DNA of 64,000 bases, from positions 17,536,690 through 17,600,689 of the forward strand of contig NC_088655.1 in the NCBI RefSeq assembly GCF_964019385.1. Reading direction: 5' to 3'. This DNA comes from Sycon ciliatum (taxonomy: Eukaryota; Porifera; Calcarea; Leucosolenida; Sycettidae). This document shows positions 1,377 to 56,571 of the stretch, piece after piece; within the stretch, counting starts at the first letter, position 1; each line of letters opens with the position of its first letter. The notes beneath the pieces were generated by a model. That model was given only the letters and a program-made list of their open reading frames with translations. It searched no databases and was not told where the DNA came from. A program made the translations under genes and the position numbers.

Positions 1377-3055
1377 TTATTCGGACTCAGACTCTTCTGA
1401 AGTATCCTCTTCATCTTCATCGAGATCTTCCACTCTTCGGTCTTGTGAATCTTGCGATTTGCTGGTGCTATATTTCCTGCCCGGTTGAGTTCGGGGTGCT
1501 TTTCTAATATTCTTCCTGGCCCGCTGATTGGCAAACCATTTTCGTATGTTTTTTGTCCCGACGGCAAAATGCTTAGCCAATTCGGCTAACCTTTGTGTAG
1601 ATGGCCAATGATCTTGATCAAACTCATTCGTCAGAACAGCATACCGATCCTTTGAAAATAGGTTGTGGGCTCGGCCACTTCGCAATTTGGTAGTACTTGT
1701 ATCTCGTGGGGCACTAGCGTTCATGTCTACGTCATCTAGCCATGCTTTGAATATAGGGTACAACGAATTCATTGTAGCGTCACAATATAAACGCCTGTCG
1801 AACTTGCTGATAGATGCCCGATTTATTGGAAATTTTTAACGCCATAGGATTTGCAGAGTATCGACGCGAGTTTTTCTTGTGAAATATTTGCCCGTTCCCT
1901 TGCTGTTTTGAGAGCCTTGCGAAACGCCTTATGATCATAACTCAATAAATCTGTCTTTGCCGTCGAAGAAGAGTGATCCAATGCATTTGGTATCGGGCGA
2001 TTTAGGGATGATCTGTAATCTCTTGTTGTCTGCACAAGCGAAGCGTCCTCGCTGTTTTGCTGTTGTGATGTACTCAAGGCGAAAGAACAAGCAATCACAG
2101 GTAAACTAGAAGGTGGATCTGTTTGTGTTGTAAATAATCTTCTGTTGGCTGATGGCGGATATGGGGATGCTCCATAGCGCCTTTTTCTCTCCGTATGAGA
2201 AATATACTCACGGTTTTGCTGTTGCAAGTTACTGACGGCCGAAGAAGAAGCATATCCCTGTAAAGCAGAATGTGTATCGTGCTGCGCTGAACTGGGGGCA
2301 TTCGATATGCTTTTATGGTCTTGGGAGCAAGATGCGGATGCTGTATAATTCCTTGTTCTGGGAACAAGAGAAACGTTCTCGGAGTAATGCTGCCACTGGT
2401 GATGCTCCTGCTCTGGATTGAGAGAGGAATTATACGAGATGCCTTCTAGTCGCTCTCTTGCTCCATGATGCTGAGTAGGAGTCCTAGAAGCAATAGCAGG
2501 CTGTGTAAGGTAAGAGCCACTGCTAGAACTGGCATATTCCACTTGCTGCAAGCCAGCCGAACGAGATACAGATACGGACCCACTTGCAGGTGATAGCTCC
2601 GAACCAATGGTCACATCGGGTTCGACGGGTCTGGAAGTGAAGTAGTTTGTTTCGGTTTGAGCTGGCCGGGGCCCATTCAGCCAACGGGAAATTTCTTGAT
2701 CGTCGTTGGCAACTTGCTTCCAATCCAATGCAATTTTCTCAGCAAAATCTAGCGGTTTGTCTTTGGAGTACTGTCGTGTCTCGATCTTTTCCAGCACGGC
2801 AGTAAGCTCCTTTCGCAGGGGATACGAATCCCAGGGACGTTGATCAGAGTTGTGCTCCATTTCCAGGCTAAGCTTTGATGGACAATTCGATGACGTTGGT
2901 ATCGCCATAGATGTGCTTGATGGGTGATTGAAGTGTGATGTGGAATCTGGTATGATCTCAGTGCTGGGCGACGATGTCCTGCTCTTTGCTGTTGAAGTTG
3001 AAGACTTGATCCAAGAAGGGACACCTGTCGCCGTTTGTGGTGAATGGTTAGCCAT
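1377..3055 (-). pseudogene. POU-homeodomain gene copy 1, frameshifted
   Basis: This paralogue of the intact gene at 32302 has a matching N-terminal half, so it would encode a POU transcription factor. The frame is open from the ATG at 3055 (or from an in-phase ATG at 3229, 58 codons upstream) into the POU-specific domain. There a change of net two bases near 1833-1839 shifts the frame, and translation stops at 1823. The second half of the POU-specific domain, the linker, the homeodomain (WFANQRARK, with A50 and N51) and the acidic tail remain open in the other phase from 1772 to 1377. The homeodomain half is almost identical to that of copies 2, 5 and 6, so decay is recent or the tract was copied in. 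A protein made from it would lack the homeodomain. Confidence 0.85.
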
Positions 3056-3400
3056 ATGAACGTCCTGTAAGATATCGGTTATTTGTTCTCTGCACCCGAA
3101 AAACAATACCGATAGAAGACAAACTGTGCAGTGAGAGAGAATCTTAGAATTCGGTGTTCGAAGAGAACCGACGACAACGGATAGAAAGACACTTGATAAG
3201 CTACGGGGTTGGGAGAAGTCTACGGACATTGAAGACCGTCTCCAGAACTACAGTGTTTTGAGCTTCCTCAGGAGATAATATTTCACAGCTTATATTGCCA
3301 AATAGTGAGGGCTAAAGAAAAATAATTACAAGTGAAAGGGGTTCGCTGTTAGTAACACTTGGCGGGAACAATCACAACTGGAATGTGACAAGGTCTCGCA
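3056..3400 (-). promoter_or_regulatory. Conserved upstream block of POU copy 1
   Basis: This block lies directly before the conserved start codon and is kept in all seven POU copies. It includes an upstream ATG at 3229 and a core near 3329-3361 in which caagtg and cacttg flank a conserved ttcgctgttagtaa. I see no TATA box at a convincing place. A promoter plus 5' leader is the simplest reading, but it is an inference from position and conservation. Confidence 0.4.
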
Positions 3401-3767
3401 CTGAATCCCCTCGTCCTTGGAAATTCAGCTATTTGAGCATCCTGAAAGGCGTCAGTACATTCAACGGATCGTTCTTCTCACATGTGCGTATCACTCAATC
3501 ATTTAAATTTTCTAAAGCTGTTCATATTTGCACGACTCGGCTGTATGTCAGTAATTACAGCATTCGCATTCACACTTACCCAGCTTGATACACCATCAGC
3601 TACCGGTACTTCTGTGCATTTGTTGCCCTCTGCAGTCGCAATAAATCGATAACGTTTTCTCAAGTCTGGCACACTTTTTTCAGTTCTTCTACATGTCCGA
3701 GGTCAACAGTGGCCCATGCTCTTTTATCCACCTCTTTGCGCTATTGGCCACACATTCATTTCTGATG

Positions 3768-4017
3768 GTGACAGTTCAGACTTAGCGCTCTAACACAGGT
3801 CTGCAAGTAGTCACGTGAGAGTCCCCTGGGGCATTCACTCAGTGAACTCACTCACTACTAATCTGGCCGGGCGTCCCACTGCTGTTGTCTCCATGGTATA
3901 TTCATTCTACAGTTATGGCATGGTGTTGGAAAACTCAGACACGTTACGGCCATGCTTGCGGACACTTGAGAGGACCGTGGGGCATTCACTCCGCCCGCCG
4001 CATAGTCGATAGATACT
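3768..4017. mobile_element. Element X, right terminal repeat only
   Basis: This is one end of the long-TIR element described at 13329-14515. The left end and core are deleted; the joint ttctgatg-gtgacag is identical in unit 5 at 34688, so the deletion predates that duplication. Confidence 0.75.
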
Positions 4018-4109
4018 GTTTGTCTACACCAGTGGCGTGTCCAGGATTTGGCTGAGGGGGGGTTGCGGCCGGGATCAAGGCGGGATGGGGTGGGGGTAGA
4101 TGACATCAT

Positions 4110-4785: not shown

Positions 4786-5195
4786 ACCACGACTCACGAG
4801 CAGTATTTCTGTACACGCAGCAACAAATGTACATTGTAAACTTCAAATTTGCCGTTATGTGAGCGAATCAACTGCTTTTTTCTTTTGTTTTAATATGCGA
4901 GTCCAACAATTTCTCACCGCTCTCAAAGCATCCTTTACATAGGCAGCGGTACTTGTCACTGTGCGCTGTTCTTTATGTTCTGGCTGCTCGCTGACAACAG
5001 GTTCTTCCACGTCTGGCGGAGTTTGACTGTCAGTCCGCTCCGAAAGTTCAACTGGATTGTCTGGAATAACAGCGACTTCATCACTCCCACTGTTTCCTGT
5101 TGGAGCGGCAGCAGGAGTTGCGCCGCCACAGGAACGCTTTACAAAAATTCCAGGCTCTGCTGGCTAGAGCTTGGCCTTTTGGGATGTCCCTGAGA

Positions 5196-8695: not shown

Positions 8696-8970
8696 TTATT
8701 CGGACTTAGAATTTACAGAAATATCCTCTTCATTTTCATCCCGATCTTCCTCTCTTTGGTCTTGCGAATCTTTGGAGTTGCTGGTGCTACATTCACCGCG
8801 CGGTTGAGTGCGGGGTGCTTTTCTAGAATTATCTTAGGACCGTTGATAGCAGCGCCAATTCCGTATGGTTTTTGTCCTTACGGCAAAACTGTTTGCGAAT
8901 TCGACTACACTTTGTGTAGATGGCCAATGACCTTGAGCAAATTCATCCGTCAGAACAGCATGCTCAACGA
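8696..8970 (-). pseudogene. POU homeodomain remnant 1
   Basis: On the minus strand, bases 8970 to 8696 match the homeodomain and acidic tail of the POU genes (HWPSTQ, FAVRTKTIRNW, then APRTQP and a decayed acidic tail). The Phe after the key Trp is Arg, position 51 is Tyr, and a TAA follows in WRCYQRS-stop. No POU-specific domain or N-terminal half lies upstream, so it is a 3' fragment copied with its flank. The plus-strand open frame over this place is a shadow. Confidence 0.85.
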
Positions 8971-10809: not shown

Positions 10810-12367
10810 TTATTCGGACTCAGACTCTTCTGAAGTATCCTCTTCATCTTCATCGAGATCTTCCACTCTTCGGTCTTGTGAATCTTGCGATTTGCTGGTG
10901 CTATATTTCCTGCCCGGTTGAGTTCGGGGTGCTTTTCTAATATTCTTCCTGGCCCGCTGATTGGCAAACCATTTTCGTATGTTTTTTGTCCCGACGGCAA
11001 AATGCTTAGCCAATTCGGCTAACCTTTGTGTAGATGGCCAATGATCTTGATCAAACTCATTCGTCAGAACAGCATACTGATCCTTTGAAAATAGGTTGTG
11101 GGCTCGGCCACTTCGCAATTTGGTAGTACTTGTATCTCGTGGGGCACTAGCGTTCATGTCTACGTCATCTAGCCATGCTTTGAATATTTGGTACAACGAA
11201 TTCATTGTAGCGTCACAATATACACGTCTTCTAAAATTTCTGATAGAGTTCCTAGCGTTTGGAAATTTGGCACCATAGGATATGCAGAGTATGGATACGA
11301 GTCTTTCTTGTGAAATGTTTGTCCGTTCTCTTGCTGTTTTGATCAATTCGCAAAAGGCCTTATGATCATAACTCAATATATCTGTGTTTGCCGTCGGAGA
11401 ACAGCGACCCATTGTACTTGGTTGTGGGAGGCATGGGGATGATCCGTATTCGCTTGTTGTCTGCCCAAGGGAAGCGTTCTCGGTGTTGTGTTGTTGTGAT
11501 GTACTCAAGGGTAAAGAGGAAGAAATCCCAGGTAAACTAGAAGGCGTATCTCTTTGTGTTGTCAATAATATTTTATAGGCTGGTCGGGGATATGGGGATG
11601 CTGCATGACGCCTTGTGCTCTCCGTGTGAGAAACATACTCACGGTTTTGCTGTTGCGAGTTACTGATGGCCGAAGAAGAAGAATATCCCTGTAAAGCAGA
11701 TGGTGCATCGTGCTGCGCTGAACTGCGGGCATTTAATCTACGTCTTTGGTCTTCGGAGCCAGATGCGGATGGTGTGTATTTCCTTGTTATCGGAACAAGG
11801 GAAACGTTCTCTGAGTAATGCTGCCACTGGTGTTGCTCCTGCTGTGGATTGAGTGAGGAATTATACGAGATGCCTTCTAGTCGCTCCTTTGCTCCATGAT
11901 GCGGAGTAGGAGTGCTTGACGCAAAAGCAGATGATATCTCTGAACCAATAGTTTCATCGGGTTCGACGCGTCTGGAAGTGAAGTCGTTTGTTTCGGTTTG
12001 AGTTGACCGGGGCTTATTCAGCCAACGGGCAATTTCTTGAACGTCGTTGACAACTCGCTTCCAATCCGATGCGTCGTCTTCAGCAACATCGAGCGGTTTG
12101 TCTTTGTAGTATTGTCGTGTCTCAATCTTTTGAAGCACGGCCGTAAGCTCATTTCGCAGGGGATACGAGTCCAAGTCATTCTCCAGTTCCAGGCTAAGCC
12201 TTGGTGAACTATTGAACCATGGATGTGGTTGATGGATGACTGAAATATGATGGGGCACTAGTTACGATCTCAGTGCTGGCCAACGATGTTCTGTTCTTTG
12301 CCGTTGCAGTTGAAGACGAGCCGCAAGAAGAGACACCGGTCGCAGTTCGTGGTGGTTGATCAGCCAT
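10810..12367 (-). pseudogene. POU-homeodomain gene copy 2, one N-terminal frameshift
   Basis: This is the closest relative of the intact gene at 40108. The start ATG at 12367 is conserved. About 50 codons in, near 12217-12221, three bases stand where copy 6 has 17, a net loss of 14 that breaks the frame; the short product ends at 12209. After the lesion the frame is open to the normal stop at 10810. An ATG at 12258 enters it and would give 482 residues with the conserved charged N-terminal block, the POU-specific domain, the linker, the homeodomain WFANQRARK and the acidic tail. I call it a pseudogene, but a shortened, functional transcription factor from the inner ATG is quite possible. It is single-exon, like its relatives. 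Confidence 0.7.
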
Positions 12368-18026: not shown

Positions 18027-19427
18027 TCATTCTGACTCAGACTCTTTAGACGCATCCTCTTCATCTCCATCGAGATCTTCCACTCTTTGGTCTTCTGAAT
18101 CTTGCGACTTGCCGGTGCCACATTCGCTGCCTGGTTGAGTTCGGGGTGCTCTTCTAATATTCTTCTTGGCCCGTTGATGACAAAACCATTGCCGTATGGT
18201 TTCTCTCCTTAACGCTAAACTGTTAGCCAATTCGCCTAACTTTTGTGTAGATGGCCAATGATCTTGAGCAAACTCATGCGTCAGAACAGCATAATGATCC
18301 TCTGAAACTTGCTTGCAGGCTCGGCCACTTCGCAATTTGGTAGTACTTGTATCTCGTGGGGGACTAACGTTCCTGTCTACGTCATCTAGCCATGCTTTGA
18401 ATATAGGGTACAACGAAGTCATTTTCGCGTCACAATATGTACAACTTTCAAACCTGTTGATAGAGGTCAGACTGTTTGGAAATTTGGCACCATAGGACTT
18501 GCAGAGTATGGATGCGAGTCTTTTTTGTGAAATGTTTGCCCGCTCTCTTGCTGTTTTGACAACCTTGGAAAACGTCTTATGATCATATCTCAATAAATCA
18601 GTATCTGCAGTTGGCGAAGAGTGATCCATTGTACACGGTTGGGGGCGATTTGGGGCATTCGATATACTACTAGGGTCTTGGGAGCCAGATGGGGATGCTG
18701 TGTAATTCCTTGTACCCTGCGTAAGGGAAACGGTCTCTCTGCAATGCTGTGGTGAGATAGCATGCGAACGGCGATGCTCCTGCTGTGGATTGCGAGAGGA
18801 ATTATACGAGATTCCTTCTAGTCGCTCTCTCGCTCCCTGATGCTGAGAAGGAGTGCTAGAAGCAATAGCAGCCACTGCAAGGTAAGAGCCACTGCTAGAA
18901 CTGGCATATGCCACTTTACGTAAGCCAGACGAACACGATACTGTTTCGGACCCACTTGCAGATGATAGTTCTGAACCAATTTTTACATGGGGCTCGACGG
19001 ATCTGGAAGAGAGGTAGTTTGTTTCGGTTTGAGTTGAGCGGTGTGCATTCAGCCAACGGGCAATTTCTGGATCGTCGTTGGCAACTCGCTTCCAATCCAA
19101 TGCGACTTCTTCAGCAAAATCTAGCGGTTTGTCTTTGGAGTATTCTCCCGTCTCAATCTTTTCCAGCACGGCAGTAAGCGCATTTCGCAGGGGATACGAG
19201 GCCCAGGGACGTTGAGCACAGTTATGCTCCAGTTCCAGGTTAAGCCTTGGTGCACTATTCGATGACATTGGTATCGCCATATATGTGCTTGATGGCTGAC
19301 TGGACTGGATTGTGGTACCATTTTGTATCTCAGGGCTGGCCGACGATGTCCTGCTCTTCGCTGTTGCAGTTGAGGACTTGATGTAAGAAGGGACACCGGT
19401 CGCAGTTCGTGGTGGATGGTCAGCCAT
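18027..19427 (-). CDS. Divergent POU-homeodomain protein, copy 3 (intact)
   Basis: This uninterrupted 466-codon frame likely encodes a nuclear DNA-binding transcription factor. Residues about 80-126 form the conserved charged block (KDKPLDFAE, then IARWLN). Residues about 282-351 match the POU-specific domain: a helix with SQKRLA, then YG..F, a third helix ending in INRFE (canonical ICRFE), and a closing helix FKAWLDDVD. After a linker of about 15 residues, the homeodomain spans about 367-426 and ends in WFCHQRAKK. Cys50 is typical of POU homeodomains, but the normally invariant Asn51 is His417. The acidic C-terminus ends in KESESE. The start at 19427 is the ATG conserved in all seven copies. 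An upstream ATG opens a short out-of-phase frame ending at ATGGCTGA, over the start. No intron is seen. The most distinct intact copy. Confidence 0.85.
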   Translation of the reverse strand: MADHPPRTATGVPSYIKSSTATAKSRTSSASPEIQNGTTIQSSQPSSTYMAIPMSSNSAPRLNLELEHNCAQRPWASYPLRNALTAVLEKIETGEYSKDKPLDFAEEVALDWKRVANDDPEIARWLNAHRSTQTETNYLSSRSVEPHVKIGSELSSASGSETVSCSSGLRKVAYASSSSGSYLAVAAIASSTPSQHQGARERLEGISYNSSRNPQQEHRRSHAISPQHCRETVSLTQGTRNYTASPSGSQDPSSISNAPNRPQPCTMDHSSPTADTDLLRYDHKTFSKVVKTARERANISQKRLASILCKSYGAKFPNSLTSINRFESCTYCDAKMTSLYPIFKAWLDDVDRNVSPPRDTSTTKLRSGRACKQVSEDHYAVLTHEFAQDHWPSTQKLGELANSLALRRETIRQWFCHQRAKKNIRRAPRTQPGSECGTGKSQDSEDQRVEDLDGDEEDASKESESE

Positions 19428-22557: not shown

Positions 22558-24153
22558 TTATTCGGGCCCAGACTCTTCTGAAGTATCCTCTTCATCTCCA
22601 TCAAGATATTCCACTCTTTCGTCTTGTGAATCTTGCAGTTTGCTGGTGCCACATTCACTGCCTGGTTGAGTTCGGGGTGCTGTTCTAATATTTTGTCCTG
22701 GCCCTTTGATTTTTAAACCAGTTACGTATGGTTTCCGTCCGTACGGCAAAACTGTTAGCCAATTCGGCTAACTTTTGTTGAGATGGCCAATGATCTCGAG
22801 TAAAGTCATCCTTCAAAACAGCATACTGATCCTCTGAAAGTTGCTTGCGGCCTCGGCCATTTCGCAATTTGGTAGTACTTGTATATCGTGGGGATTAACG
22901 TTCCTGTCTACGTCATCTAGCCATGCTTTGAATATAGGGTACAACGAATTCATTGTAGCGTCACAATATAAACGCCTGTCGAACTTGCTGATAGATGCCC
23001 GATTTATTGGAAATTTGGCGCCATAGGATTTGCAGAGTATCGACGCGAGTTTTTCTTGTGAAATATTTGCCCGTTCCCTTGCTGTTTTGAGAGCCTTGCG
23101 AAACGCCTTATGATCATAACTCAATAAATCTGTCTTTGCCGTCGAAGAAGAGTGATCCAATGCATTTGGTATCGGGCGATTTAGGGATGATCTGTAATCT
23201 CTTGTTGTCTGCACAAGCGAAGCGTCCTCGCTGTTTTGCTGTTGTGATGTACTCAAGGCGAAAGAACAAGCAATCACAGGTAAACTAGAAGGTGGATCTG
23301 TTTGTGTTGTATATAATCTTCTGTTGGCTGATGGCGGATATGGGGATGCTCCATAGCGCCTTTTTCTCTCCGTATGAGAAATATACTCACGATTTTGCTG
23401 TTGCAAGTTACTGACGGCCGAAGAAGAAGCATATCCCTGTAAAGCAGATGGTGTATCGTGCTGCGCTGAACTGCGGGCATTCGATATGCTTCTATGGTCT
23501 TGGGAGCAAGATGCGGATGCTGTATAATTCCTTGTTCTGGGAACAAGGGAAAGGTTCTCGGAGTAATGCTGCCACTGGTGAGGCTCCTGCTCTGGATTGA
23601 GAGAGGAATTATACGAGATGCCTTCTAGTCGCTCTCTTGCTCAACGATGCTGAGTAGGAGTCCTAGAAGCAATAGCAGGCTGTGTAAGGTAAGAGCCACT
23701 GCTAGAACTGGCATATTCCACTTGCTGCAAGCCAGACGAACGAGATACAGATACGGACCCACTTGCAGGTGATAGCTCCGAACCAATGGTCACATCGGGT
23801 TCGACGGGTCTGGAAGTGAAGTAGTTTGTTTCGGTCTCAGCAAAATCTAGCGGTTTGTCTTTGGAGTACTGTCGTGTCTCGATCTTTTCCAGCACGGCAG
23901 TAAGCTCATTTCGCAGGGGATACGAATCCCAGGGACGTTGATCACAGTTGTGCTCCATTTCCAGGCTAAGCTTTGATGGACAATTCGATGACGTTGGTAT
24001 CGCCATAGATGTGCTTGATGGGTGATTGAAGTGTGATGTGGAATCTGGTATGATCTCAGTGCTGGGCGACGATGTCCTGGTCTTTGCTGTTGAAGTTGAA
24101 GACTTGATCCAAGAAGGGACACCTGTCGCCGTTCGTGGTGAATGGTTAGCCAT
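22558..24153 (-). pseudogene. POU-homeodomain gene copy 4, multiply broken
   Basis: The N-terminal half is nearly identical to copies 1 and 5 but has an in-frame loss of about 28 codons inside the conserved charged block, joining DFAE to TETNYF near 23837. A TGA at 23641-23643 stops the frame. The frame then continues through the POU-specific domain to the linker, where a lost G near 22895 shifts it. A further one-base gain near 22692 shifts it again, just after the homeodomain recognition helix, which reads WFKNQRART: Lys50 with Asn51 intact, a different specificity residue from its neighbours. The tail ends in EESGPE. With at least three disabling lesions it cannot make a full protein. Its homeodomain is not the homogenised type found in copies 1, 2, 5 and 6. 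Confidence 0.88.
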
Positions 24154-30202: not shown

Positions 30203-30475
30203 TTATTCGGACTTAGAATTTACAGAAATATCCTCTTCATTTTCATCCCGATCTTCCTCTCTTTGGTCTTGCGAATCTTTGGAGTTGCTGGTGCTACATT
30301 CACCGCGCGGTTGAGTGCGGGGTGCTTTTCTAGAATTATCTTAGGACCGTTGATAGCAGCGCCAATTCCGTATGGTTTTTGTTCTTACGGCAAAACTGTT
30401 TGCGAATTCGACTACACTTTGTGTAGATGGCCAATGACCTTGAGCAAATTCATCCGCCAGAACAGCATGCTCAAC
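30203..30475 (-). pseudogene. POU homeodomain remnant 2
   Basis: Same truncated homeodomain and tail as the remnant at 8696, with the same Trp-Arg-Cys-Tyr change. The shared lesions mean the fragment was already dead before the large units duplicated. Confidence 0.85.
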
Positions 30476-30754
30476 GAAGTCCCACAAACTTCGTCTTCAC
30501 ATGTTACTCGAAGCGTTCATTTCATTTATTTCATCCATAGACCATACGTTTCATTCTTTGCGAATGGGTTTACTCACAAAGCTAATCGAGTGAAACGAGA
30601 AAGTAATACCCGTAGCAATATTTGTCTTGCTCGCGAGTACTGTTCAACCTACATGTACATGCAGTTGTTTCACATACTTGAAGACGGTTGAAGTACAAAT
30701 ACATTCATTTAAAGGAAGGAAAATGGACCAATCAACTACGAATTAGGCTATAAT

Positions 30755-32301: not shown

Positions 32302-33978
32302 TTATTCGGACTCAGACTCTTCTGAAGTATCGTCTTCATCTTCATCGAGATCTTCCACTCTTCGGTCTTGTGAATCTTGCGATTTGCTGGTGCTATATTT
32401 CCTGCCCGGTTGAGTTCGGGGTGCTTTTCTAATATTCTTCCTGGCCCGCTGATTGGCAAACCATTTTCGTATGTTTTTTGTCCCGACGGCAAAATGCTTA
32501 GCCAATTCGGCTAACCTTTGTGTAGATGGCCAATGATCTTGATCAAACTCATTCGTCAGAACAGCATACTGATCCTTTGAAAATAGGTTGTGGGCTCGGC
32601 CACTTCGCAATTTGGTAGTACTTGTATCTCGTGGGGCACTAGCGTTCATGTCTACGTCATCTAGCCATGCTTTGAATATTTGGTACAACGAATTCATTGT
32701 AGCGTCACAATATAAACGCCTGTCGAACATGCTGATAGATGCCCGATTTATTGGAAATTTGGCGCCATAGGATTTGCAGAGTATCGACGCGAGTTTTTCT
32801 TGCGAAATATTTGCCCGTTCCCTTGCTGTTTTGAGAGCCTTGCGAAACGCCTTATGATCATAACTCAATAAATCTGTCTTTGCCGTCGAAGAAGAGTGAT
32901 CCAATGCATTTGGTATCGGGCGATTTAGGGATGATCTGTAATCTCTTGTTGTCTGCACATGCGAAGCCTCCTCGCTGTTTTGCTGTTGTGATGTACTCAA
33001 GGCGAAAGAACAAGCAATCACAGGTAAACTAGAAGGTGGATCTGTTTGTGTTGTAAATAATCTTCTGTTGGCTGATGGCGGATATGGGGATGCTCCATAG
33101 CGCCTTTTTCTCTCCGTATGAGAAATATACTCACGGTTTTGCTGTTGCAAGTTACTGACGGCCGAAGAAGAAGCATATCCCTGTAAAGCAGATGGTGTAT
33201 CGTGCTGCGCTGAACTGCGGGCATTCGATATGCTTCTATGGTCTTGGGAGCAAGATGCGGATGCTGTATAATTCCTTGTTCTGGGAACAAGAGAAACGTT
33301 CTCGGAGTAATGCTGCCACTGGTGATGCTCCTGCTCTGGATTGAGAGAGGAATTATACGAGATGCCTTCTAGTCGCTCTCTTGCTCCATGATGCTGAGTA
33401 GGAGTCCTAGAAGCAATAGCAGGCTGTGTAAGGTAAGAGCCACTGCTAGAACTGGCATATTCCACTTGCTGCAAGCCAGACGAACGAGATACAGATACGG
33501 ACCCACTTGCAGGTGATAGCTCCGAACCAATGGTCACATCGGGTTCGATGGGTCTGGAAGTGAAGTAGTTTGTTTCGGTTTGAGCTGGCCGGGGCCCATT
33601 CAGCCAACGGGAAATTTCTTGATCGTCGTTGGCAACTTGCTTCCAATCCAATGCAATTTTCTCAGCAAAATCTAGCGGTTTGTCTTTGGAGTACTGTCGT
33701 GTCTCGATCTTTTCCAGCACGGCAGTAAGCTCATTTCGCAGGGGATACGAATCCCAGGGACGTCGATCACAGTTGTGCTCCATTTCCAGGCTAAGCTTTG
33801 ATGGACAATTCGATGACGTTGGTATCGCCATAGATGTGCTTGATGGGTGATTGAAGTGTGATGTGGAATCTGGTATGATCTCAGTGCTGGGCGACGATGT
33901 CCTGCTCTTTGCTGTTGAAGTTGAAGACTTGATCCAAGAAGGGACACCTGTCGCCGTTCGTGGTGAATGGTTAGCCAT
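32302..33978 (-). CDS. Divergent POU-homeodomain protein, copy 5 (intact)
   Basis: This is a 558-codon uninterrupted frame, likely a sequence-specific nuclear transcription factor. The first 370 residues are rich in Ser, Thr, Gln and Pro, except for a conserved charged block at about 78-128 (KDKPLDFAE, DWKQVANDD, ISRWLN). The POU-specific domain lies at about 374-443: ANISQEKLA with the helix-2 Gln, YGAKF, a third helix two residues longer than usual (RASISMFD), and MNSLYQIFKAWLDDVD. The linker is about 15 residues. The homeodomain spans about 459-518, with HWPS before helix 2 and WFANQRARK in helix 3 (W506, A508 at position 50, N509 at position 51). The tail ends in an acidic EESESE stretch. 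The start at 33978 is conserved in all copies; the upstream ATG here leads only to a short frame ending in TGA. Single exon. The N-terminal half matches copies 1 and 4, the C-terminal half copies 2 and 6. Confidence 0.88.
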   Translation of the reverse strand: MANHSPRTATGVPSWIKSSTSTAKSRTSSPSTEIIPDSTSHFNHPSSTSMAIPTSSNCPSKLSLEMEHNCDRRPWDSYPLRNELTAVLEKIETRQYSKDKPLDFAEKIALDWKQVANDDQEISRWLNGPRPAQTETNYFTSRPIEPDVTIGSELSPASGSVSVSRSSGLQQVEYASSSSGSYLTQPAIASRTPTQHHGARERLEGISYNSSLNPEQEHHQWQHYSENVSLVPRTRNYTASASCSQDHRSISNARSSAQHDTPSALQGYASSSAVSNLQQQNREYISHTERKRRYGASPYPPSANRRLFTTQTDPPSSLPVIACSFALSTSQQQNSEEASHVQTTRDYRSSLNRPIPNALDHSSSTAKTDLLSYDHKAFRKALKTARERANISQEKLASILCKSYGAKFPINRASISMFDRRLYCDATMNSLYQIFKAWLDDVDMNASAPRDTSTTKLRSGRAHNLFSKDQYAVLTNEFDQDHWPSTQRLAELAKHFAVGTKNIRKWFANQRARKNIRKAPRTQPGRKYSTSKSQDSQDRRVEDLDEDEDDTSEESESE

Positions 33979-37986: not shown

Positions 37987-38258
37987 TTATTCGGACTTAG
38001 AATTTACAGAAATATCCTCTTCATTTTCATCCCGATCTTCCTCTCTTTGGTCTTGCGAATCTTTGGAGTTGCTGGTGCTACATTCACCGCGCGGTTGAGC
38101 GCGGGGTGCTTTTCTAGAATTATCTTAGGACCGTTGATAGCAGCGCCAATTCCGTATGGTTTTTGTCCTTACGGCAAAACTGTTTGCGAATTCGACTACA
38201 CTTTGTGTAGATGGCCAATGACCTTGAGCAAATTCATCCGTCAGAACAGCATGCTCGA
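37987..38258 (-). pseudogene. POU homeodomain remnant 3
   Basis: Third copy of the same truncated homeodomain and tail, with the same breakpoint upstream of the homeodomain and the same inactivating changes. Confidence 0.85.
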
Positions 38259-40107: not shown

Positions 40108-41679
40108 TTATTCGGACTCAGACTCTTCTGAAGTATCGTCTTCATCTTCATCGAGATCTTCCACTCTTCGGTCTTGTGAATCTTGCGATTTGCTGGTGCT
40201 ATATTTCCTGCCCGGTTGAGTTCGGGGTGCTTTTCTAATATTCTTCCTGGCCCGCTGATTGGCAAACCATTTTCGTATGTTTTTTGTCCCGACGGCAAAA
40301 TGCTTAGCCAATTCGGCTAACCTTTGTGTAGATGGCCAATGATCTTGATCAAACTCATTCGTCAGAACAGCATACTGATCCTTTGAAAATAGGTTGTGGG
40401 CTCGGCCACTTCGCAATTTGGTAGTACTTGTATCTCGTGGGGCACTAGCGTTCATGTCTACATCATCTAGCCATGCTTTGAATATTTGGTACAACGAATT
40501 CATTGTAGCGTCACAATATACACGTCTTCTAAAATTTCTGATAGAGTTCCTAGCGTTTGGAAATTTGGCACCATAGGATATGCAGTGTATGGATACGAGT
40601 CTTTCTTGTGAAATGTTTGCCCGTTCTCTTGCTGTTTTGATCAATTCGCAAAAGGCCTTATGATCATAACTCAATATATCTGTGTTTGCCGTCGGAGAAC
40701 AGCGACCCATTGTACTTGGTTGTGGGAGACATGGGGATGATCCGTATTCGCTCGTTGTCTGCCCAAGCGAAGCGTTCTCGCTGTGTTCCTGTTGTGATGT
40801 ACTCAAGGGTAAAGAGGAAGAAATCCCAGGTAAACTAGAAGGCGTATCTCTTTGTGTTGTCAATAATATTTTATAGGCTGGTCGGGGATATGGGGATGCT
40901 GCATGACGCCTTGTGCTCTCCGTGTGAGAAACATACTCACGGTTTTGCTGTTGCGAGTTACTGATGGCCGAAGAAGAAGCATATCCCTGTAAAGCAGATG
41001 GTGCATCGTGCTGCGCTGAACTGCGGGCATTTAATCTACGTCTTTGGTCTTCGGAGCCAGATGCGGATGGTGTGTATTTCCTTGTTCTCGGAACAAGGGA
41101 AACGTTCTCTGAGTAATGCTGCCACTGGTGTTGCTCCTGCTGTGGATTGAGTGAGGAATTATACGAGATGCCTTCTAGTCGCTCCTTTGCTCCATGATGC
41201 GGAGTAGGAGTGCTTGACGCAAAAGCAGATGATAGCTCTGAACCAATAGTTTCATCGGGTTCGACGCGTCTGGAAGTGAAGTCGTTTGTTTCGGTTTGAG
41301 TTGACCGGGGCATATTCAGCCAACGGGCAATTTCTTGAACGTCCATGACAACTCGCTTCCAATCCGATGCGTCGTCTTCAGCAACATCGAGCGGTTTGTC
41401 TTTGTAGTATTGTCGTGTCTCAATCTTTTGAAGCACGGCCGTAAGCTCATTTCGCAGGGGATACGAGTCCAAGTCATTCTCCAGTTCCAGGCTAAGCCTT
41501 GGTGAACTATTCGATGACTTTGGTATCGCCATGGATGTGGTTGATGGATGACTGAAATATGATGGGGCACTAGTTACGATCTCAGTGCTGGCCGACGATG
41601 TTCTGTTCTTTGCTGTTGCAGTTGAAGACGAGCCGCAAGAAGAGACACCGGTCGCAGTTCGTGGTGGTTGATCAGCCAT
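40108..41679 (-). CDS. Divergent POU-homeodomain protein, copy 6 (intact)
   Basis: This is a 523-codon frame from the conserved ATG at 41679. The frame also stays open to an upstream ATG at 41853, which would add 58 residues with a hydrophobic, Cys-rich stretch. I prefer the inner start because only that ATG is kept in phase in all copies. Residues about 72-122 hold the charged block, 339-408 the POU-specific domain (ISQERLVSI, YGAKF, SIRNF, FKAWLDDVD), and about 424-483 the homeodomain with W471 and helix 3 WFANQRARK (A50, N51). The C-terminus is acidic. Family knowledge predicts a nuclear DNA-binding regulator recognising a bipartite site. It is single-exon, minus strand, nearly identical to frameshifted copy 2, and shares its homeodomain half with copies 1 and 5. 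Target genes are unknown. Confidence 0.88.
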   Translation of the reverse strand: MADQPPRTATGVSSCGSSSTATAKNRTSSASTEIVTSAPSYFSHPSTTSMAIPKSSNSSPRLSLELENDLDSYPLRNELTAVLQKIETRQYYKDKPLDVAEDDASDWKRVVMDVQEIARWLNMPRSTQTETNDFTSRRVEPDETIGSELSSAFASSTPTPHHGAKERLEGISYNSSLNPQQEQHQWQHYSENVSLVPRTRKYTPSASGSEDQRRRLNARSSAQHDAPSALQGYASSSAISNSQQQNREYVSHTESTRRHAASPYPRPAYKILLTTQRDTPSSLPGISSSLPLSTSQQEHSENASLGQTTSEYGSSPCLPQPSTMGRCSPTANTDILSYDHKAFCELIKTARERANISQERLVSIHCISYGAKFPNARNSIRNFRRRVYCDATMNSLYQIFKAWLDDVDMNASAPRDTSTTKLRSGRAHNLFSKDQYAVLTNEFDQDHWPSTQRLAELAKHFAVGTKNIRKWFANQRARKNIRKAPRTQPGRKYSTSKSQDSQDRRVEDLDEDEDDTSEESESE

Positions 41680-42030
41680 ATGAACGTCCTGAAAGATATC
41701 CGTTATTTGTTCTCTGCAACCGCAGCACAATACAAATAGAAGACAAATTGTGCAGTGAGAGAAAATTTTTGAATTTGGTATTCGAAGAGAACGAACTACA
41801 ACGGATAGAAAGACAGTTGTTAAGCTACGGGCTTGAAAGTTGTCTACGGGCATTGAAGACTGCAGCCTGGACTAACGCGTTTTGAGCGTCCTCAGGGGGG
41901 ATTTTACAGCTTCTGTTGCTAAAGTTAAGGCTGAAAAAATTAATCACAAGTGAAAGGTGTTCGCTGTTAGTAACACTTGGTAGAAAAGAATCACAACTGC
42001 AATGTGATAAGATTGCCCACTGAATCACCT
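41680..42030 (-). promoter_or_regulatory. Conserved upstream block of POU copy 6
   Basis: Equivalent block with the core near 41947-41980. The upstream ATG at 41853 is in phase with the gene. Confidence 0.4.
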
Positions 42031-42135: not shown

Positions 42136-42627
42136 TATACAAATAATCTACGTGGAGATAAAAGTTTAATAATAGCAATGAAAAGTATGAATGCCGCAGA
42201 CATCACCACGCAACATGACAATTTGTTCAAGGTTTGGTTTTGTGTGTTTCCAAAATCGATTTTCACGTTCCGATCATCAGTGGAAATACGGAACTAAAGA
42301 GATCAAGGGAAAAACAAAGGTTAAAAATCCAAAGAAGTGTGACACATGACGGGTAACTTGTGGTAAGTTTTACAAAAAGTGAGAACTAAAATAAAGAGTA
42401 ATCTTTATTTTAGTTCTCACTTTTTGTAAAACTTACCACAAGTTACCCGTCATGTGTCACACTTCTTTGGATTTTTAACCTTTGTTTTTCCCTTGATCTC
42501 TTTAGTTCCGTATTTCCACTGATGATCGGAACGTGAAAATCGATTTTGGAAACACACAAAACCAAACCTTGAACAAATTGTCATGTTGCGTGGTGATGTC
42601 TGCGGCATTCATACTTTTCATTGCTAT
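42136..42627. mobile_element. Hairpin insertion, perfect 227-bp arms, 13-bp TSD
   Basis: The direct repeat taataatctaaaa (42123-42135 and 42628-42640) flanks a segment absent from unit 2 near 12816. The palindrome arms are 42170-42396 and 42403-42629, with a 6-base loop, and I see no mismatch. A 13-bp duplication is more typical of LINE-type endonuclease than of DNA transposases, so a snap-back cDNA insertion is one explanation. Confidence 0.8.
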
Positions 42628-43374
42628 TAATAATCTAAAACTGTTCATATTTGCACCACACAGCCTTCCCTTAGTAATTATAGCATTCGAATTCACACTT
42701 TTCCAGCTTGACACACCGCCAGCTATCGTTACTTCTGTGTACTTGTTACCTACTATAGTCGATATACTTCATATATTATACGTTTTAGGTTTCTCAAGTC
42801 TGGCACCTTTATTCACTTCTATGTGTACGAGGTCACCAGTTGTCCAAGCTGTTTTATGCTGCTTATCTTTGCGCTATTGGTATCACGTTCATTTCCGAGG
42901 GCCCTCAAAGTCTGTGCTCACCTTCCAGGAGCAACGCTGACTCATTCTACACTCTGGTGGGTCACGAGGTGTTTGTCGCGCTGAACACGGAGGAGAGGGT
43001 GTGTCACAATAGTATTGTACCACTCCCTCTCCTAATGCATAATTTCGTTATATGGGCCTCAACCAGCGAAAACAGCCCTTAGGGTTAACATTTTCAAAAT
43101 TCCTTTTTGGTTAGAAATTTGTTGAATCACATCTACTGAAGGAGCTCAGCCAAGAAAAAGTTCAATATTCCGATTCTAAATGGGTTTATACACCAATAAA
43201 CAATATTTACTCCAAATAGTGCAATTTATGTATACGATGTATGTGTACAATGAATATTCAGCATTCGAACTTCGGAAGGTGGGTGGGCAGCTTGAATACT
43301 TTTGAACTAGTGAAGTAAGCAGCTATAATGACAAAGAATAGCTGATGATCGACGAGGAGACAATAGTCGTAAAA

Positions 43375-43991
43375 TGGCAATAAATAAGATAAATTGTGCA
43401 CTCATAACAACAGCAAAAATGAAGAAAGTCAAGTTCCATAACGTTTTCTTGTGACTGTCATCAGTGGAACGCCGTCACATAAAAATGTAATAACTAAAAC
43501 ACACACTTATATACATGTAGCTAATATGGTTTCAGGTAGAAATACAGCAGCTAACAAGTACAAAAAGCGAAGTTTGCACCTTTGCAATGTGTGAATATAG
43601 TGTATGTGAGAAAGGTAGTGGCAGATGAATGTGATACTGTGTGAATGAATGTAATGGTGCGTGTGTATTACTTGAAGAGTGTGAGTGATACAACGTTTTC
43701 TTTCTGCACCATTACATTCATTCACACAGTATCACATTCATCTGCCACTACCTTTCTCACATACACTATATTCACACATTGCAAAGGTGCAAACTTCGCT
43801 TTTTGTACTTGTTAGCTGCTGTATTTCTACCTGAAACCATATTAGCTACATGTATATAAGTGTGTGTTTTAGTTATTACATTTTTATGTGACGGCGTTCC
43901 ACTGATGACAGTCACAAGAAAACGTTATGGAACTTGACTTTCTTCATTTTTGCTGTTGTTATGAGTGCACAATTTATCTTATTTATTGCCA
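43375..43991. repeat. Perfect hairpin, 286-bp arms, 45-base loop
   Basis: Bases 43375-43660 are the reverse complement of 43706-43991 as far as I can read, with loop 43661-43705. Arms this long without visible mismatch imply a very recent origin or an assembly artefact. Confidence 0.85.
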
Positions 43992-44400
43992 TAATAGCTG
44001 ATGAGTGCGGAGAAATGATCGACATATTCGCAGCTGCATCCTGCGTGGAGTCGTTCCCCAATCTCGTCTTCCATTTCTTCCTCCGCAGCTGAAGACACGA
44101 CGTCGCTACCGTCACTAACCCCAGACTCCGAATTTATCTCACTTGACGACTCCTCATCTTTCGACTCTGACGAGTCATCGGCCACCTTGAGCCGCATCGC
44201 AGCAGGAGCTGACGGCTGCGATTCCACCTTGCTGTTGACATCGATGTCGGAACCAAAGAACGTTTCATCCTCATTCTGAACTTCAGCGGCTACTTCAACA
44301 TCCACTCCCCACCAGGCTCGAGCTAGCTGTAGGCAATGACTGCAGTGTGTGCTCTGCGAACAGCTCTGGCGTCCGCAGCCATCACAACAAGATCAAGGAA
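43979..44400 (-). pseudogene. Acidic, Cys-containing reading frame in transposon
   Basis: The minus-strand frame runs from about 44400 to 43979 with no stop after about 44378. It begins with a cysteine cluster (CDGCGRQSC, then THCSHC) and continues into an acidic Ser/Glu/Asp-rich stretch such as NEDETFFGSDID. Its stop lies at the edge of the hairpin, so the C-terminal part may have been replaced by the palindrome. It may be the N-terminus of a transposase or a captured gene. I do not recognise a family. Confidence 0.4.
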
Positions 44401-50249: not shown

Positions 50250-50518
50250 TTATTCGGACTTAGAATTTACAGAAATATCCTCATCATTTCCATCGCGATC
50301 TTAGTCTCTTTTGTCTTGTGAATCTTTGGATTTGCTGGTGCTACATTCACAGCGCGGTTGAGTTCGGGGTGCTTTTCTAGCATTCTCTTTGGACCGTTGA
50401 TAGCAACGCCAATTCTGTATGGTTTGTCCTTACGGCAAAACTGTTTGCGAATTCGGCTACATGTTGTGTAGATGGCCAAGATCTTGAGCAAATTCATCCG
50501 TCAGAACAGCATGCTCAA
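50250..50518 (-). pseudogene. POU homeodomain remnant 4
   Basis: Fourth and most distinct copy. It keeps the Trp-Arg-Cys-Tyr change but lacks the TAA after it, and has an extra two-base loss before the recognition helix. Confidence 0.82.
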
Positions 50519-51739: not shown

Positions 51740-52397
51740 TAAAACTAACAAGACACACACAAAGAAGGAAAAGTAAGAAAACAACAGGAAACCACAGGAA
51801 ACAATGTAAAGATACATACGAGCACGTCCCAACAACACAACAGATAATGGGACAGCAACCGCAGGGGACATGCGATGTTGACCAGGGGTGGGAAGCAATA
51901 CTGTCCAGGTTTCCTTCGTCCAGAGAGTAATACTAGGGTTCCCGAACACGCTCAATATCAGGGTACGTTCCAGACGGAGCGATAACTAAAGCGGCAGGTA
52001 GCGCGTAATCCTCGCGAGGTGAGGTAACATGACGGCACACTGCACAACTCCACTGTTGTAACGCCAAACCAATTCATAACAGTTTTAAAAGCCACCACTT
52101 TGATTGTGTAAGGTGTGCGAGACACCCCAGTCAGCTGCCAGGCCAAGTCAACTGGCTAAAGCTTTACGTATCTTGATCTCGCTTGTGCATGCCGTCCTTA
52201 TGTTTTCGGTGTTGAATCTTAATGAAGTATTTATATGTTTTCCTCTTGCTGTCTTTTCAGTACCAAGCCAGTACCTAGGCCGTGGAACAGACACCGGATC
52301 ACCCACGACTGGACATGATGCAAGCGATTGGGAACGGCCTTGTGTGGTGTATAAATGGGTAACCCGGCTTGCCATTATTTAGTGTGTATGTGAGTGA

Positions 52398-52925
52398 TGA
52401 TGGAGTGAGTAAGAAGCCCGATGGGCAGTGATGACACATGATTGCGTAGGGCTTGATGCAATACTCACGGAGAAGCCCAATGGGCAGTGAGCACACAAGA
52501 TTGTGTATGGCTTGATGCCATAATGAGGGAGAAGCCCGATGGGCCGTGATGGCACATGGTTGTGTATGGCTAGATGCCATGATGAGGGGGAGGGAGAAGC
52601 CCGATGGGCAGTGATGAGTATGGCTTGGTGCCATAATGAGGGAGAAGCCCGATGGGCAGTGATGACACATGGTTGTGTATGGCTTGATGCCATGATGAGG
52701 GAGAAGCCCGATGGGCAGTGATGGCACATGGCTGTGTATGGCTTGATGCCATGATGAGGGAGAAGCCCGATGGGCAGTGATGACACATGGTTGTGTATGG
52801 CTTGATGCCATGATGAGGGAGAAGCCCGATGGGCAGTGATGACACATGGTTGTGTATGGCTAGATGCCATGATGAGAGAGAAGCCCGATGGTCAGTGATG
52901 ACACATGATGGTGTATGACTTGATG
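52398..52925. repeat. 59-bp minisatellite, about nine copies
   Basis: The unit begins gagaagcccgatgggcagtg and continues with a tgtgtatggcttgatgccat stretch. Copies start at 59-base steps (for example 52701 and 52760), with one shortened copy near 52620. Because 59 is not a multiple of three, all minus-strand phases are open and produce long but artificial reading frames. Confidence 0.9.
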
Positions 52926-53094: not shown

Positions 53095-53210
53095 ACACGG
53101 GCAGTACGTGGGTGTACAGGATGTGTGTGCGTGTGTGTACAGTATGTGTGGGTACAGTGAATGTGCGTAAGAGTGCATGAGTGTGCAGTAAGTGTGTGAG
53201 GGGCGGACGT
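53095..53210. repeat. GT-rich low-complexity tract
   Basis: Irregular gtgtgtg, gtgtac and gtacagt runs. No gene. Confidence 0.8.
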
Positions 53211-54910
53211 GTGCATCCGATACAGGATTCCTTCTCTTGCAGGAACTGAACGGACGTCCAGCCCAATCACGGAAGTACAGCACCTCACATTGAATTTACT
53301 GGCAGTACTACTCCATGATGTAGCACTCGCAACCTAGCAGGGGAACTTTCGGGCATTTCGCAGAGATATTGTCTGCTCGGAGTGCACTGCCGATCATGTT
53401 ATCCTGGCTGATGTGTGCTCGCCCGGTTGCCACCGGACCCAACCTGGCCTACTAGTGAGCATCCCAGGGCAAGTCTGGCCGGGTCTCCATAATGTTCATA
53501 GTAACTATACACTTGGCCACAGATGGTGGTCACAGTGCCCAAGACTTTGGCACACTGGCGCCATGCGCCACACTGCTCGTTTTCCTTGTCCAAATCTATG
53601 TGTGCTGCTCTCCTATCGGCCTCACTATCCTTTACATCGTGAATGTGATTGCTCTGGTAGACCACTACCCCATGTACTGAATAGTCGCTTTGTGAGTGAA
53701 AAGTTTTGTTTTTTCACGGCTGAGCGTAGCGAAAGAGTGCAAAAAACGTATTTTTCACTCACGAATATTTTCGTGCATTTGCTCTTGTTCTGCGCAACTC
53801 CGTTGAACCTGCCATCGTGGTCTTTGTTTTTCCTCGTGGTAGTTGAAGTTGCCTGCCCACCCACCCTGGTTTCATGGGAGTCGTCCGCTGTTCTTCTTGA
53901 CAATCTATGCCTATGTGTGTGGCTTATGATTATGACATACACCGGTTATTACATACCATTTCTTGCTATCTCTATTCTTGGGTCTGACTGGCAGCGGGGC
54001 AGGAATTAATGAAGTAGAAAGGTTTTTTGGCCGAAAGGCGTGTTTTTCCTCTAGCCCGGTTGAGCGGTCGTGGCTAGGAATGTAGGGAGTCATTGTTTTT
54101 CAGGCGCTCCCCTGCTGCCCAGTCACCCATGCTCACCACTGGCCATGCTGTTTCACTTGATTTCACGGCCTTTTCTCCCGCTTGCTGGCGGTTCTTTGAT
54201 GGATTTAGATGTTTTTCGGCTATTTATCTATTATGTGGCTGCAAGTGTGGTTTTTTGCTTCTACTCATTTCTGGAAAACCACCACGGTGGTGAGTGTGAT
54301 TGCTCTGGTAGACCACTACCATCGTGAGTGTGATTGCTCTTGTAGACCACTACCCCATGTACTGAATAGTCGCTTTGTGAGTGAAAAGAGTTTTAACTCT
54401 AAGTTTCACGCAATAAGTTGTGAGCTCAAGACATACCTTGCACATTGTAAACTGGCGTCGGACTTATGCGAGTGACATAACTCGATGAGTGAAACTTGAA
54501 AATTGCTCGGTTGAATGAGAGCAGAGTGTGTAGTGAATATCAAATATGGCATCGGCCAATAGCCAAATGCGCAAAACAATGCAGGTCATATCATGCGCAT
54601 TTACCAGTATACATTAGACCAGGGACTTGACCAACATGACTCAAACGTAGACGAAATTGCGGTTCACAACCATAAACAACATGAAACGGCATTTGAACAA
54701 ATATGACCAGGGACAAATAACAATCAGACAGTTACTTAGAATGGGATTATGGGAACAATGCTACTTGAAGAATGTTGTTTGTGTTGTATGGTTCTTTAAA
54801 CTCCCCCATGAGTTTTCAGGCGGTAGAGATGTCCATAATGATAATAATTATAATAGTTATTGGATTACTAATTTCCAATAACTTCAGGATAAGGTCCGCC
54901 CAAGTATTCG

Positions 54911-56571
54911 TTATTCGGCCTCAGACTCTTCTGAAGTATCCTCTTCATCTTCATCGAGATCTTCCACTCTTTGGTCTTGTGAATCTTGCGATTTGCACAT
55001 GCTATATTTACTGCCCGGTTGAGTTTGGGGTGCTTTTCTAAAATTCTTCTTGGACTGTTGATAGTCAAACCAATTCCGGATGGTTTTTGTCCTTACGGCA
55101 AAATTGTTAGCCAACTCGGCTACCTTTTGTGAAGATGGCAAATTCATACGTCAGAACAGCATACTGATCCTCTGAAAATTACTTGCGTGCTCGGCCACTT
55201 CGCAATTTGGTAGTACTTGTATCTCTTGTGGCACTAGCGTTCCTGGCTACGTCATCTAGCCATGCTTTGAATATTGGGTACAACGAATTCATTGTAGCGT
55301 CACAATATATACGTCCTCTAAAATTGTTGATGGAGTGCCCACTGTTTGGAAATTTGGCACCATAGGATATGCAGAGTATGGATGCGAGTCTTTCCTGTGA
55401 AATGTTTGCCCGTTTTCTTGCCGTTTTGATGAATTCGCAGTACGCCTTATGATCATACCTCAATAAATCTGCCTTTGCCTTCAGAGAAGAGTGATCCATT
55501 TTACTTGGTAGTGGGAGATTTGGGGATGATCCGTAATCACTTGTCTGCCAAAGCGAAGTGTTTTCGCTGTTTTGCTGTTGTGATGTACACAAGGGTAAAG
55601 AGGAAGCAATCCCAGGTAAACTAGAAGGCGTATCTCTTTGTGTTTTCAATCACTTTCTATAGGCTGGTGGCGGATATGGGGATGCTGCATAGCGCCTTTT
55701 TCTCTCCGTATGAGAAATATACTCACGGTTTTGCTGTTGTGAGTTACTGACGGCCGAAGAAGAAGCAAATCCCTGTAAAGCAGATGGTGTATCGTGCTGC
55801 GCTGGACTGCTGGCATTCGATATACTTCTATGGTCTTGGGAGCCAGATGCGGATACTGTGTAATTCCTTGTTCTCGAAACAACGGAAACGGTCTCTGAGT
55901 AATGCTGCCACTGGTGATGCTCCTGCTGTGGATTGAGGGAGGAATCATACGAGATGCCTTCTAGTCGCTCTTTTGCTCCATGATGCTGAGTAGGAGTGCT
56001 AGAAGCAATAGCAGGCTGTGTAAGGTAAGAGCCACTGCTGGAACTGGCATATGCCACTCGCTGCAAGCCGGGCGAACGATATACAGATACGGACCCACTT
56101 GCAGATGATGGCTCCGAACCAATGGTCACATCGGGTGCGACGGGTCTGGAAGTGAAGTAGTTTGTTTCGGTTTGAGCTGGCCGGGGGCCCATTCAGCCAA
56201 CGGGCAATTTCTTGATCGTCGTTGGCAACTTGCTTCCAATCCAATGCGATTTCTTCAGCAAAATCTAGCGGTTTGTCTTTGGAGTATTGTCGTGTCTCGA
56301 TCTTTTCCAGCACGGCAGTAAGCCCATTTCGCAGGGAACACGAATCCCAGGGACGTTGATCACAGTTGTGCTCCAGTTCCAGGCTAAATCTTGTTAGACT
56401 ATTCGATGACGTTGGTATGGCCATGGAAGTGTTTGATAGATGACTGAAGTGTGGTAGGGCATTAGTTTCGATCGCAGTGCTGGCTGACGATGTTCTGTTC
56501 TTTGCTGTTGCAGTTGAAGTCTTGAAGCAAGAGGAGACACCGGTCTCAGTTCGTGGTGATTGGTCAGCCAT
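54911..56571 (-). pseudogene. POU-homeodomain gene copy 7, decayed
   Basis: The conserved ATG at 56571 opens a frame that breaks at an extra G near 56187. In the restored phase a TGA at 55650-55652 and a TAA at 55179-55181 interrupt it, the latter just before the homeodomain. A deletion near 55138-55145 then shifts it again within helix 1 or 2. The POU-specific domain is still recognisable between these stops (ANISQERLASI, YGAKF, SINNF, FKAWLDDVA). The recognition helix reads WFDYQQSKK, so positions 50 and 51 are Asp and Tyr and Arg53 is lost, which is not compatible with normal homeodomain contacts. The acidic tail (EESEAE) survives. This is the oldest-looking full-length copy. Confidence 0.88.

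Follow-up and report, generated by a model that had tools for sequence, protein, structure and literature searches.

This analysis concerns a tandem array of POU-type homeobox loci in the sponge Sycon ciliatum, found in a stretch of 64,000 nucleotides (the window, G000:C14:17536690-17600689) of a 538 Mb assembly with 313 contigs. When the 64-kb window was searched by tblastn with the 558-amino-acid copy 5, seven POU-type loci and four remnants consisting of a homeodomain only were located, all on the minus strand (Table 1). This bears out the count and the orientation given in a preliminary description of the window, and a repeat comparison of the window found the homeobox segment repeated 11 times. 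The main copies are spaced 4.5-14.8 kb apart. Three copies (3, 5, and 6) are intact, in agreement with the number that had been claimed. In copies 1 and 2 a single visible frame change interrupts the reading frame, and copies 4 and 7 contain stops; in all, four of the seven loci and all four remnants are broken. In the first three remnants of Table 1 the recognition helix is broken identically (NWRCYQRS*), and these therefore look like pseudogenes that were copied along with the units. Copy 6 reads as 523 amino acids from the conserved ATG at position 41679 and as 581 from an upstream ATG. A single coding exon, as had been proposed, fits the array. The term intronless goes too far, since a 5' exon is possible and could be excluded only with transcripts. 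A CAG, a candidate splice acceptor, lies upstream of the ATG in many copies and is changed in L009, L010, L037, and L038.

Table 1. POU-type loci, their domains, and homeodomain remnants in the window
Feature	Position in window	Strand	Remarks
POU-type copy 1	1380..3055	-	frame change near residue 407; homeodomain half open, in a 152-amino-acid frame
Homeodomain remnant (pseudogene)	8756..8965	-	1 in-frame stop
POU-type copy 2	10864..12367	-	frame change at residues 51-57, remainder open
POU-type copy 3, intact, 466 amino acids	18027..19427	-	open frame; tblastn match 18030-19427
POU-specific domain, copy 3	18375..18578	-	PF00157, residues 284-351; same place in genome-wide domain scan
Homeodomain, copy 3	18162..18305	-	PF00046, residues 375-422
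POU-type copy 4, pseudogene	22561..24153	-	3 stops
Homeodomain remnant (pseudogene)	30263..30487	-	1 in-frame stop
POU-type copy 5, intact, 558 amino acids	32302..33978	-	open frame; tblastn match 32305-33978
POU-specific domain, copy 5	32650..32853	-	residues 376-443; 18.3 bits, under the curated cut-off of 27
Homeodomain, copy 5	32437..32586	-	residues 465-514
Homeodomain remnant (pseudogene)	38047..38256	-	1 in-frame stop
POU-type copy 6, intact	40108..41853 (open reading frame)	-	tblastn match 40162-41679
Homeodomain remnant, most decayed	50253..50516	-	3 in-frame stops
POU-type copy 7, pseudogene	54953..56571	-	frame changes and 2 stops

The domain content of five open reading frames (ORFs) from the window was examined with Pfam, using cut-offs of 27 bits for the POU-specific domain and 22.9 bits for the homeodomain. 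Copy 3 scored over both (37.7 bits for PF00157 and 36.1 bits for PF00046), and copies 2, 5, and 6 passed for the homeodomain only. Their POU-specific score was 13.9 in copy 2, under the cut-off like that of copy 5, and was not listed in copy 6, although in all three this region aligns with the same region of the paralogues. Thus a profile check proposed for the intact copies recovered the homeodomain in all of them and the POU-specific domain over cut-off in one. The homeodomain scored 36-41 bits in four of the five ORFs and lies C-terminal of the POU-specific domain; in the fifth ORF, which is the N-terminal portion of copy 1, Pfam found neither domain. Among sequences of solved structures, copy 3 had 24 matches at E ≤ 0.01; every one was a POU protein, the best being 7xrc (E 3.1e-13). 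Alignment to solved structures placed a two-residue insertion in copy 3 ahead of helix 3 of the POU-specific domain. Genome-wide, 23 of 38 PF00157 matches lie on the window's contig, C14.

The order of POU-specific domain and homeodomain, together with the kept structural residues, resembles that of canonical POU class factors (Oct, Brn, Pit). Unlike in those factors, the canonical contacts (Gln44, Thr45, and Arg49 of the POU-specific domain, Asn51 of the homeodomain) are not kept and the residues found there vary within the arrays, in addition to the insertion in copy 3. As judged from the sequences, the non-canonical contacts bear on binding mode rather than on ancestry, and the name POU-type describes domain content. 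Two identities for the N-terminal region were tried and rejected: a degenerate first POU-specific domain, for array 1 (defined below; hhalign probability 0.1), and a transposon-borne module, since all 57 genome matches lie on C14 or at a single copy on contig C3. Compared with one family member at 16.81 Mb, array-1 loci show 39-48% identity in this region.

Further genomic searches supported the local birth-and-death expansion of a divergent POU type that had been suggested, but revealed that its scale had been underestimated, with about 95 match clusters on C14 compared to 11 loci. Of the 94 matches given by a search with copy 5, 93 lie on C14; the remaining one is a full-length copy on C3. 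When searches with several members were made and their hits merged, the C14 clusters spanned 15.96-18.65 Mb in several subfamily arrays: 40 at 17.36-17.90 Mb, which is the window's array (array 1), 24 at 18.22-18.65 Mb (array 2), 23 at 16.50-16.73 Mb, seven at 16.73-16.83 Mb, and one at 15.96 Mb. The merging rule was our own, a cluster may represent a gene, a pseudogene, or a fragment, E values rise to near 1e-4 in the weakest, and the counts are lower bounds; seven homeodomain-only hits of the copy-5 search and matches on C1, C3, C5, and C9 are excluded. Arrays 1 and 2 are about 30% identical to each other. Among 41 array-1 loci (the 40 clusters and the C3 copy), 19 are full-length, with the N-terminal region, both domains, and an acidic tail in one open frame; these are the 17 intact copies used in the tests below plus L063 and L064. 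In L024, which is full-length and open, the conserved ATG reads ATA, and L012, L013, L014, and L065 are open through the homeodomain and lack the acidic tail. Among relatives at C14:16.54-16.79 Mb, L056 and L073 contain two POU-specific domains in one open frame and L058 contains two homeodomains. Family matches also occur within very long open frames at G000:C14:18505269 (2020 amino acids) and 17531503 (1733 amino acids).

In the arrays, the recognition-helix residues predicted to read DNA change unusually fast, and the fold around them is kept. Residues of the POU-specific domain (POUs) and homeodomain (HD) are given in Oct-type numbering, with the mapping checked against the 7xrc alignment, and entropies were calculated from 30 POUs and 29 HD rows. 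In array 1, entropy reaches 1.9-2.4 bits at POUs 43, 44, 45, 48, and 49 and 2.96 bits at HD50, where ten residues occur; HD51 is N, H, Y, or R, with Asn in 15 of 24 copies. Among these positions POUs46 (Ser) and POUs47 (Ile) are invariant (30/30), as are HD W48 and F49 (29/29), and POUs50 is Phe in 29 of 30. The structural codons are likewise uniform, with TCT at POUs46, TGG at HD48, and TTT at HD49 (each in 27 of 27 rows used for codon counts), which argues against general hypermutation. In 15-codon sliding windows over 15 intact copies, nonsynonymous divergence (pN) is highest, at 0.300, in residues 411-425, on POUs helix 3 (409-418), and synonymous divergence (pS) there is an ordinary 0.154 (median 0.126). 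The same POU-specific positions vary in array 2, but the variable homeodomain positions differ (47 and 54) and HD50 is fixed. As an internal control, seven other POU loci of this genome (L001, L002, and L004-L008) were scored in one POU-specific domain and homeodomain per locus. They keep Gln44, Arg49, HD Cys50, Asn51, and Gln54, with Thr, Ser, or Ala at POUs45 and Val, Ile, or Thr at HD47. Three of the seven belong to another array, which lies on C1 (63.63-63.84 Mb) and numbers about seven loci. The variable pattern is therefore not general for the POU genes of this genome, as far as these were read.

Site models detected positive selection in these domains. For array 1 (24 sequences, separate trees), M2a was preferred over M1a with P=3.5e-8 for the POU-specific domain and P=3.1e-6 for the homeodomain, and for array 2 (nine sequences) with P=4.5e-7; the selected class was fitted at an omega of 4. 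Near-duplicates (L010, L038, and L066) and loci with frame changes in the domain region (L025, L026, L030, L061, and L062) were left out of the 24. In the 17 intact copies the same comparison found no positive selection in the linker (P=0.35) or tail (P=1), and the N-terminus gave a weak signal (P=0.027, w2=1.5). Of 147 array-1 codons, 15 were positive in a FUBAR-like scan, among them POUs 43, 44, 45, 48, 49, 54, and 56 and HD 7, 41, 43, and 50, compared to none in eight simulated null sets of 147 codons. In array 2, ten of 148 codons were positive, namely POUs 43, 44, 45, and 48, HD 21, 47, 54, and 57, and two others.

In Oct4, Gln44, Thr45, Arg49, and Ser56 are described as DNA-interacting, and V139, N143, and Q146 as contacting AT flanks (PMC4720428, PMC9943670). 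By our conversion the latter three correspond to HD 47, 51, and 54, and the contact positions used here were taken from Oct4 and Brn2. Three of six contacts fixed beforehand were positive in array 1 compared to 12 of 141 other codons (P=0.014). Adding POUs56 post hoc, when it was already known to be positive, gave four of seven compared to 11 of 140 (P=0.002). Moreover, pN/pS at the six contact positions was 1.62 in array 1 and 1.45 in array 2, as against 0.49 and 0.30 in the remaining helix positions, a remainder that excludes POUs 43, POUs 48, and HD50.

The preliminary description had argued for selection on at least some copies, with a dN/dS (ratio of nonsynonymous to synonymous substitution rates) near one in intact copies as counter-evidence. 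On average such a value was found, with a pairwise median of 0.91 (NG86, 17 intact copies, 129 pairs with dS > 0.05). Nevertheless, selection is supported by the kept frames and by the positively selected sites, and the average near 0.9 combines two classes of site, fold positions that are conserved and DNA-facing positions under positive selection. Substitutions simulated under neutral drift would give rise to about 36 stops along the terminal branches that lead to the 17 intact copies. For eight of these copies, the probability of passing down the terminal branch stop-free lies at 0.003-0.075, with a mean of about 3% and indels disregarded. Because the copies were picked as intact out of 41 loci, a joint survival figure overstates the case; at about 3% survival, one or two such survivors would be expected among 41 loci compared to the eight observed. 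Open frames are thus kept beyond the neutral expectation.

From the array structure, the kept frames, the positive selection at DNA-facing positions, and the recurrence of the same POU-specific positions in array 2, all documented here, the arrays are probably best explained as a birth-and-death POU-type cluster selected for new DNA-binding specificities at the DNA-facing residues of its recognition helices. Units with one POU gene would duplicate in tandem, with many copies decaying and others staying open. In the surviving copies, selection would favour amino-acid change at the base-facing residues of the POU-specific and homeodomain recognition helices, and the folds, the N-terminal region, and the acidic tail would be kept by selection. 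The outcome would be a set of similar proteins whose predicted DNA targets differ in sequence. By inference, the genes are expressed as proteins, and these bind DNA and have different targets. The driver may possibly be a conflict with parts of the genome that keep changing, for example transposons or satellites, which would explain continued diversification; this is put forward tentatively, and a role in genome defence is a guess.

Several observations weigh against selection for new specificities at the helices. HD50, where array 1 is most variable, is an invariant Ile in nine of nine array-2 sequences and scores there as conserved. The Asn at HD51 is lost in nine of 24 array-1 copies, so some copies may not bind DNA in the standard way. 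When the two domains of array 1 were given separate trees, fewer sites passed the 0.9 threshold of the scan: 43, 44, 48, 54, and one further codon in the POU-specific domain, and 7 and 41 in the homeodomain. In the scan of that array HD47 was not positive (0.12), and HD51 (0.88) and HD54 (0.70) fell short of the threshold. In array 1 the positive codons outside known base contacts are four unnumbered codons, HD 7, 41, and 43, and POUs54; in array 2 they are HD 21, HD 57, and two further codons. Over HD helix 3 synonymous divergence is raised (0.24-0.28, more exactly 0.242-0.277, compared to a median of 0.126), which suggests that gene conversion or deeper divergence adds to the signal there. 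It is also raised at the six contacts relative to the rest of the domains (0.227 vs. 0.144 in array 1 and 0.282 vs. 0.112 in array 2), to which gene conversion or deep divergence likewise contributes. The simulated null included neither recombination nor synonymous-rate variation, and the site models, which we implemented ourselves, were run on fixed trees. Of the 24 sequences, six (L012, L013, L014, L027, L028, and L032) are broken or cut short outside the tested region. Finally, L002 on contig C9, otherwise canonical, carries a further POU-specific domain with the non-canonical helix FSRSSLQRF.

The overall dN/dS median of 0.91, the broken state of four of seven window loci and all four remnants, and the HD51 losses could also be read as signs of a decaying family, in which most copies are dead or dying and helix variation reflects constraint lost along with DNA binding. 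Relaxation predicts an omega near 1, however, and the selected class was fitted at 4; neighbouring structural codons (POUs46, HD48, and HD49) are identical in all 27 rows, and the eight intact copies survive on branches where stop-free survival is improbable. Decay is therefore considered unlikely. The missing HD51 Asn, together with the positive sites outside base contacts (HD 7, 41, and 43 and POUs54), would also fit helices that contact proteins rather than DNA, the POU fold serving as a scaffold for fast-evolving recognition, for example in mating, allorecognition, or immunity. This too is improbable: sites of POUs helix 3 come out as positive in each of the two arrays and fall on positions that touch bases in known POU structures, and selection in ETCHbox homeodomains at residue 7 and at a residue 43 is read as DNA-related (PMC8208926).

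ETCHbox genes themselves suggest another role. In the same study, these genes of eutherian mammals (ARGFX, DPRX, LEUTX, PARGFX, and TPRX) are described as fast-evolving and arranged in tandem arrays, including a large rabbit LEUTX array, with gene conversion and with positive selection in homeodomains, including residue 7 in LEUTX and recognition-helix residue 43 in ARGFX (PMC8208926). By this precedent, the Sycon arrays might be a developmental family of fast-evolving early-embryo homeobox genes with few real targets and no arms race over target recognition. We hold this possible but doubtful, as the copy number and the concentration of selection on POUs helix 3 exceed that case as it is given there (PMC8208926). 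This reading differs from selection for new specificities in role and not in selection signal; the two overlap, and the probabilities attached to them do not sum to one. The families themselves are distinct: ETCHbox genes are CRX-derived, PRD class, mammalian, and active in the early embryo, whereas the Sycon loci are POU-type by domain content and structure-sequence search, number dozens of copies, and are selected in the POU-specific helix as well.

It was also asked whether the repeats could be an assembly artefact, and this worry is reduced by a second set of sequences. Near-identical copies do exist (copy 5 and the copy at 17852625 are 99% identical), and a pair of POU loci on C9 has identical proteins in inverted orientation, as uncollapsed haplotypes or misassembled repeats might produce. 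Nevertheless, of the 30 matches to which the copy-5 search assigned a locus, 23 are 70-81% identical to copy 5, and three proteins in ENA (P0001, P0002, and P0003) match three distinct loci (L025, L028, and L061) at 99.7, 99.8, and 100%. An artefact is accordingly very improbable. For each of the three proteins the longest contig given is 101,534 bases, which suggests one ENA contig with several POU units, apparently from the same species in another assembly. P0004, likewise given with 101,534 bases and apparently from this species too, has a best match in G000 of at most 96% over 276 residues; with no match above 96%, it may mark a copy-number or allelic difference.

The family was also sought outside its own species. 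A profile search limited by word matches, with at most about 8000 candidates scored, returned five proteins, all from ENA (P0001-P0004 and P0006), and a single-protein search within the same limits likewise returned five, all from ENA (P0001-P0005). A control search with a canonical POU protein of the same genome found 196 proteins, with named ones among the 120 listed coming from many animals; the database therefore covers animals. No description of a POU array of this kind was found in the open literature searched, a scope that excludes subscription papers and preprints.

Intronless homeobox genes in tandem arrays are known from DUX4/Dux, which differ in having a double homeodomain, no POU-specific domain, and near-identical units. 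A parallel in selection is provided by zinc-finger genes. In one study, KRAB zinc-finger clusters are described as tandem, with gain and loss and with positive selection on DNA-contacting residues of recent paralogues, and ten of 12 selected sites in PRDM9 contact DNA, although orthologous KRAB zinc-finger genes mostly avoid changes at DNA-contact residues (PMC3126818). Positive selection at DNA-contact residues of tandem paralogues is what was found in Sycon, with the reservations given above, as an analogy rather than as membership. KRAB zinc-finger proteins and PRDM9 are built from a C2H2 zinc-finger array with an effector domain, whereas the Sycon loci combine a POU-specific domain and a homeodomain, and no Pfam match to a zinc finger or C2H2 array was found in the five window ORFs scanned. 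It is conceivable, if rather less than an even prospect, that the arrays are a POU-based counterpart: a large, fast-turnover set of two-domain DNA readers in which single residues of the recognition helices are selected so that they follow shifting targets, for example transposons, satellites, or recombination hotspots.

Other features were noted in and around the arrays. Within the window, non-long-terminal-repeat retrotransposon-like ORFs with reverse transcriptase, endonuclease, and zinc-knuckle matches lie at 14759-17086 (minus strand) and 58743-62331 (plus strand). Long inverted repeats occur between POU units at 43374-43992 (287-nucleotide arms, 100% complementary) and 42163-42636 (235-nucleotide arms, 99%), and two overlapping ORFs with a repeated peptide at 52299-52870 (minus strand) were taken by eye for a minisatellite, a region where no repeat search was made. 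Elsewhere, the separate POU array at G000:C1:63630515-63840085 holds about seven better conserved loci, at least one with stops, and the three that were read keep canonical contacts. L002 and L003 (G000:C9:18886042-18889242 and 19077953-19081153) encode identical proteins in opposite orientation; a single frame holds two POU-specific domains followed by the homeodomain. At G000:C1:64401823-64600837, nine NK-like homeobox matches share one strand within about 200 kb, and one of them contains a stop; of eight that were read, six are nearly identical, and the recognition helix is conserved. Among the best 12 of 117 homeodomain matches, one appeared Msx-like by eye and none was recognised as Hox. 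The genome contains two PAX loci, and two Pax genes in Sycon, compared to a single PaxB in demosponges, are described in an earlier report (PMC4083861). Searches for innexin and for COX1 gave no match; for innexin the control stayed silent as well, so that this negative carries no weight.

POU and homeodomain factors are textbook cases of deeply conserved DNA recognition. If selection for new specificities is the correct explanation, the dozens of Sycon paralogues would form a natural library of a two-part reader that evolution can retarget, with specificity codes that could be tested. Animals without KRAB zinc fingers may then have built a comparable repertoire from another fold, and the drivers of such systems would become testable outside vertebrates.

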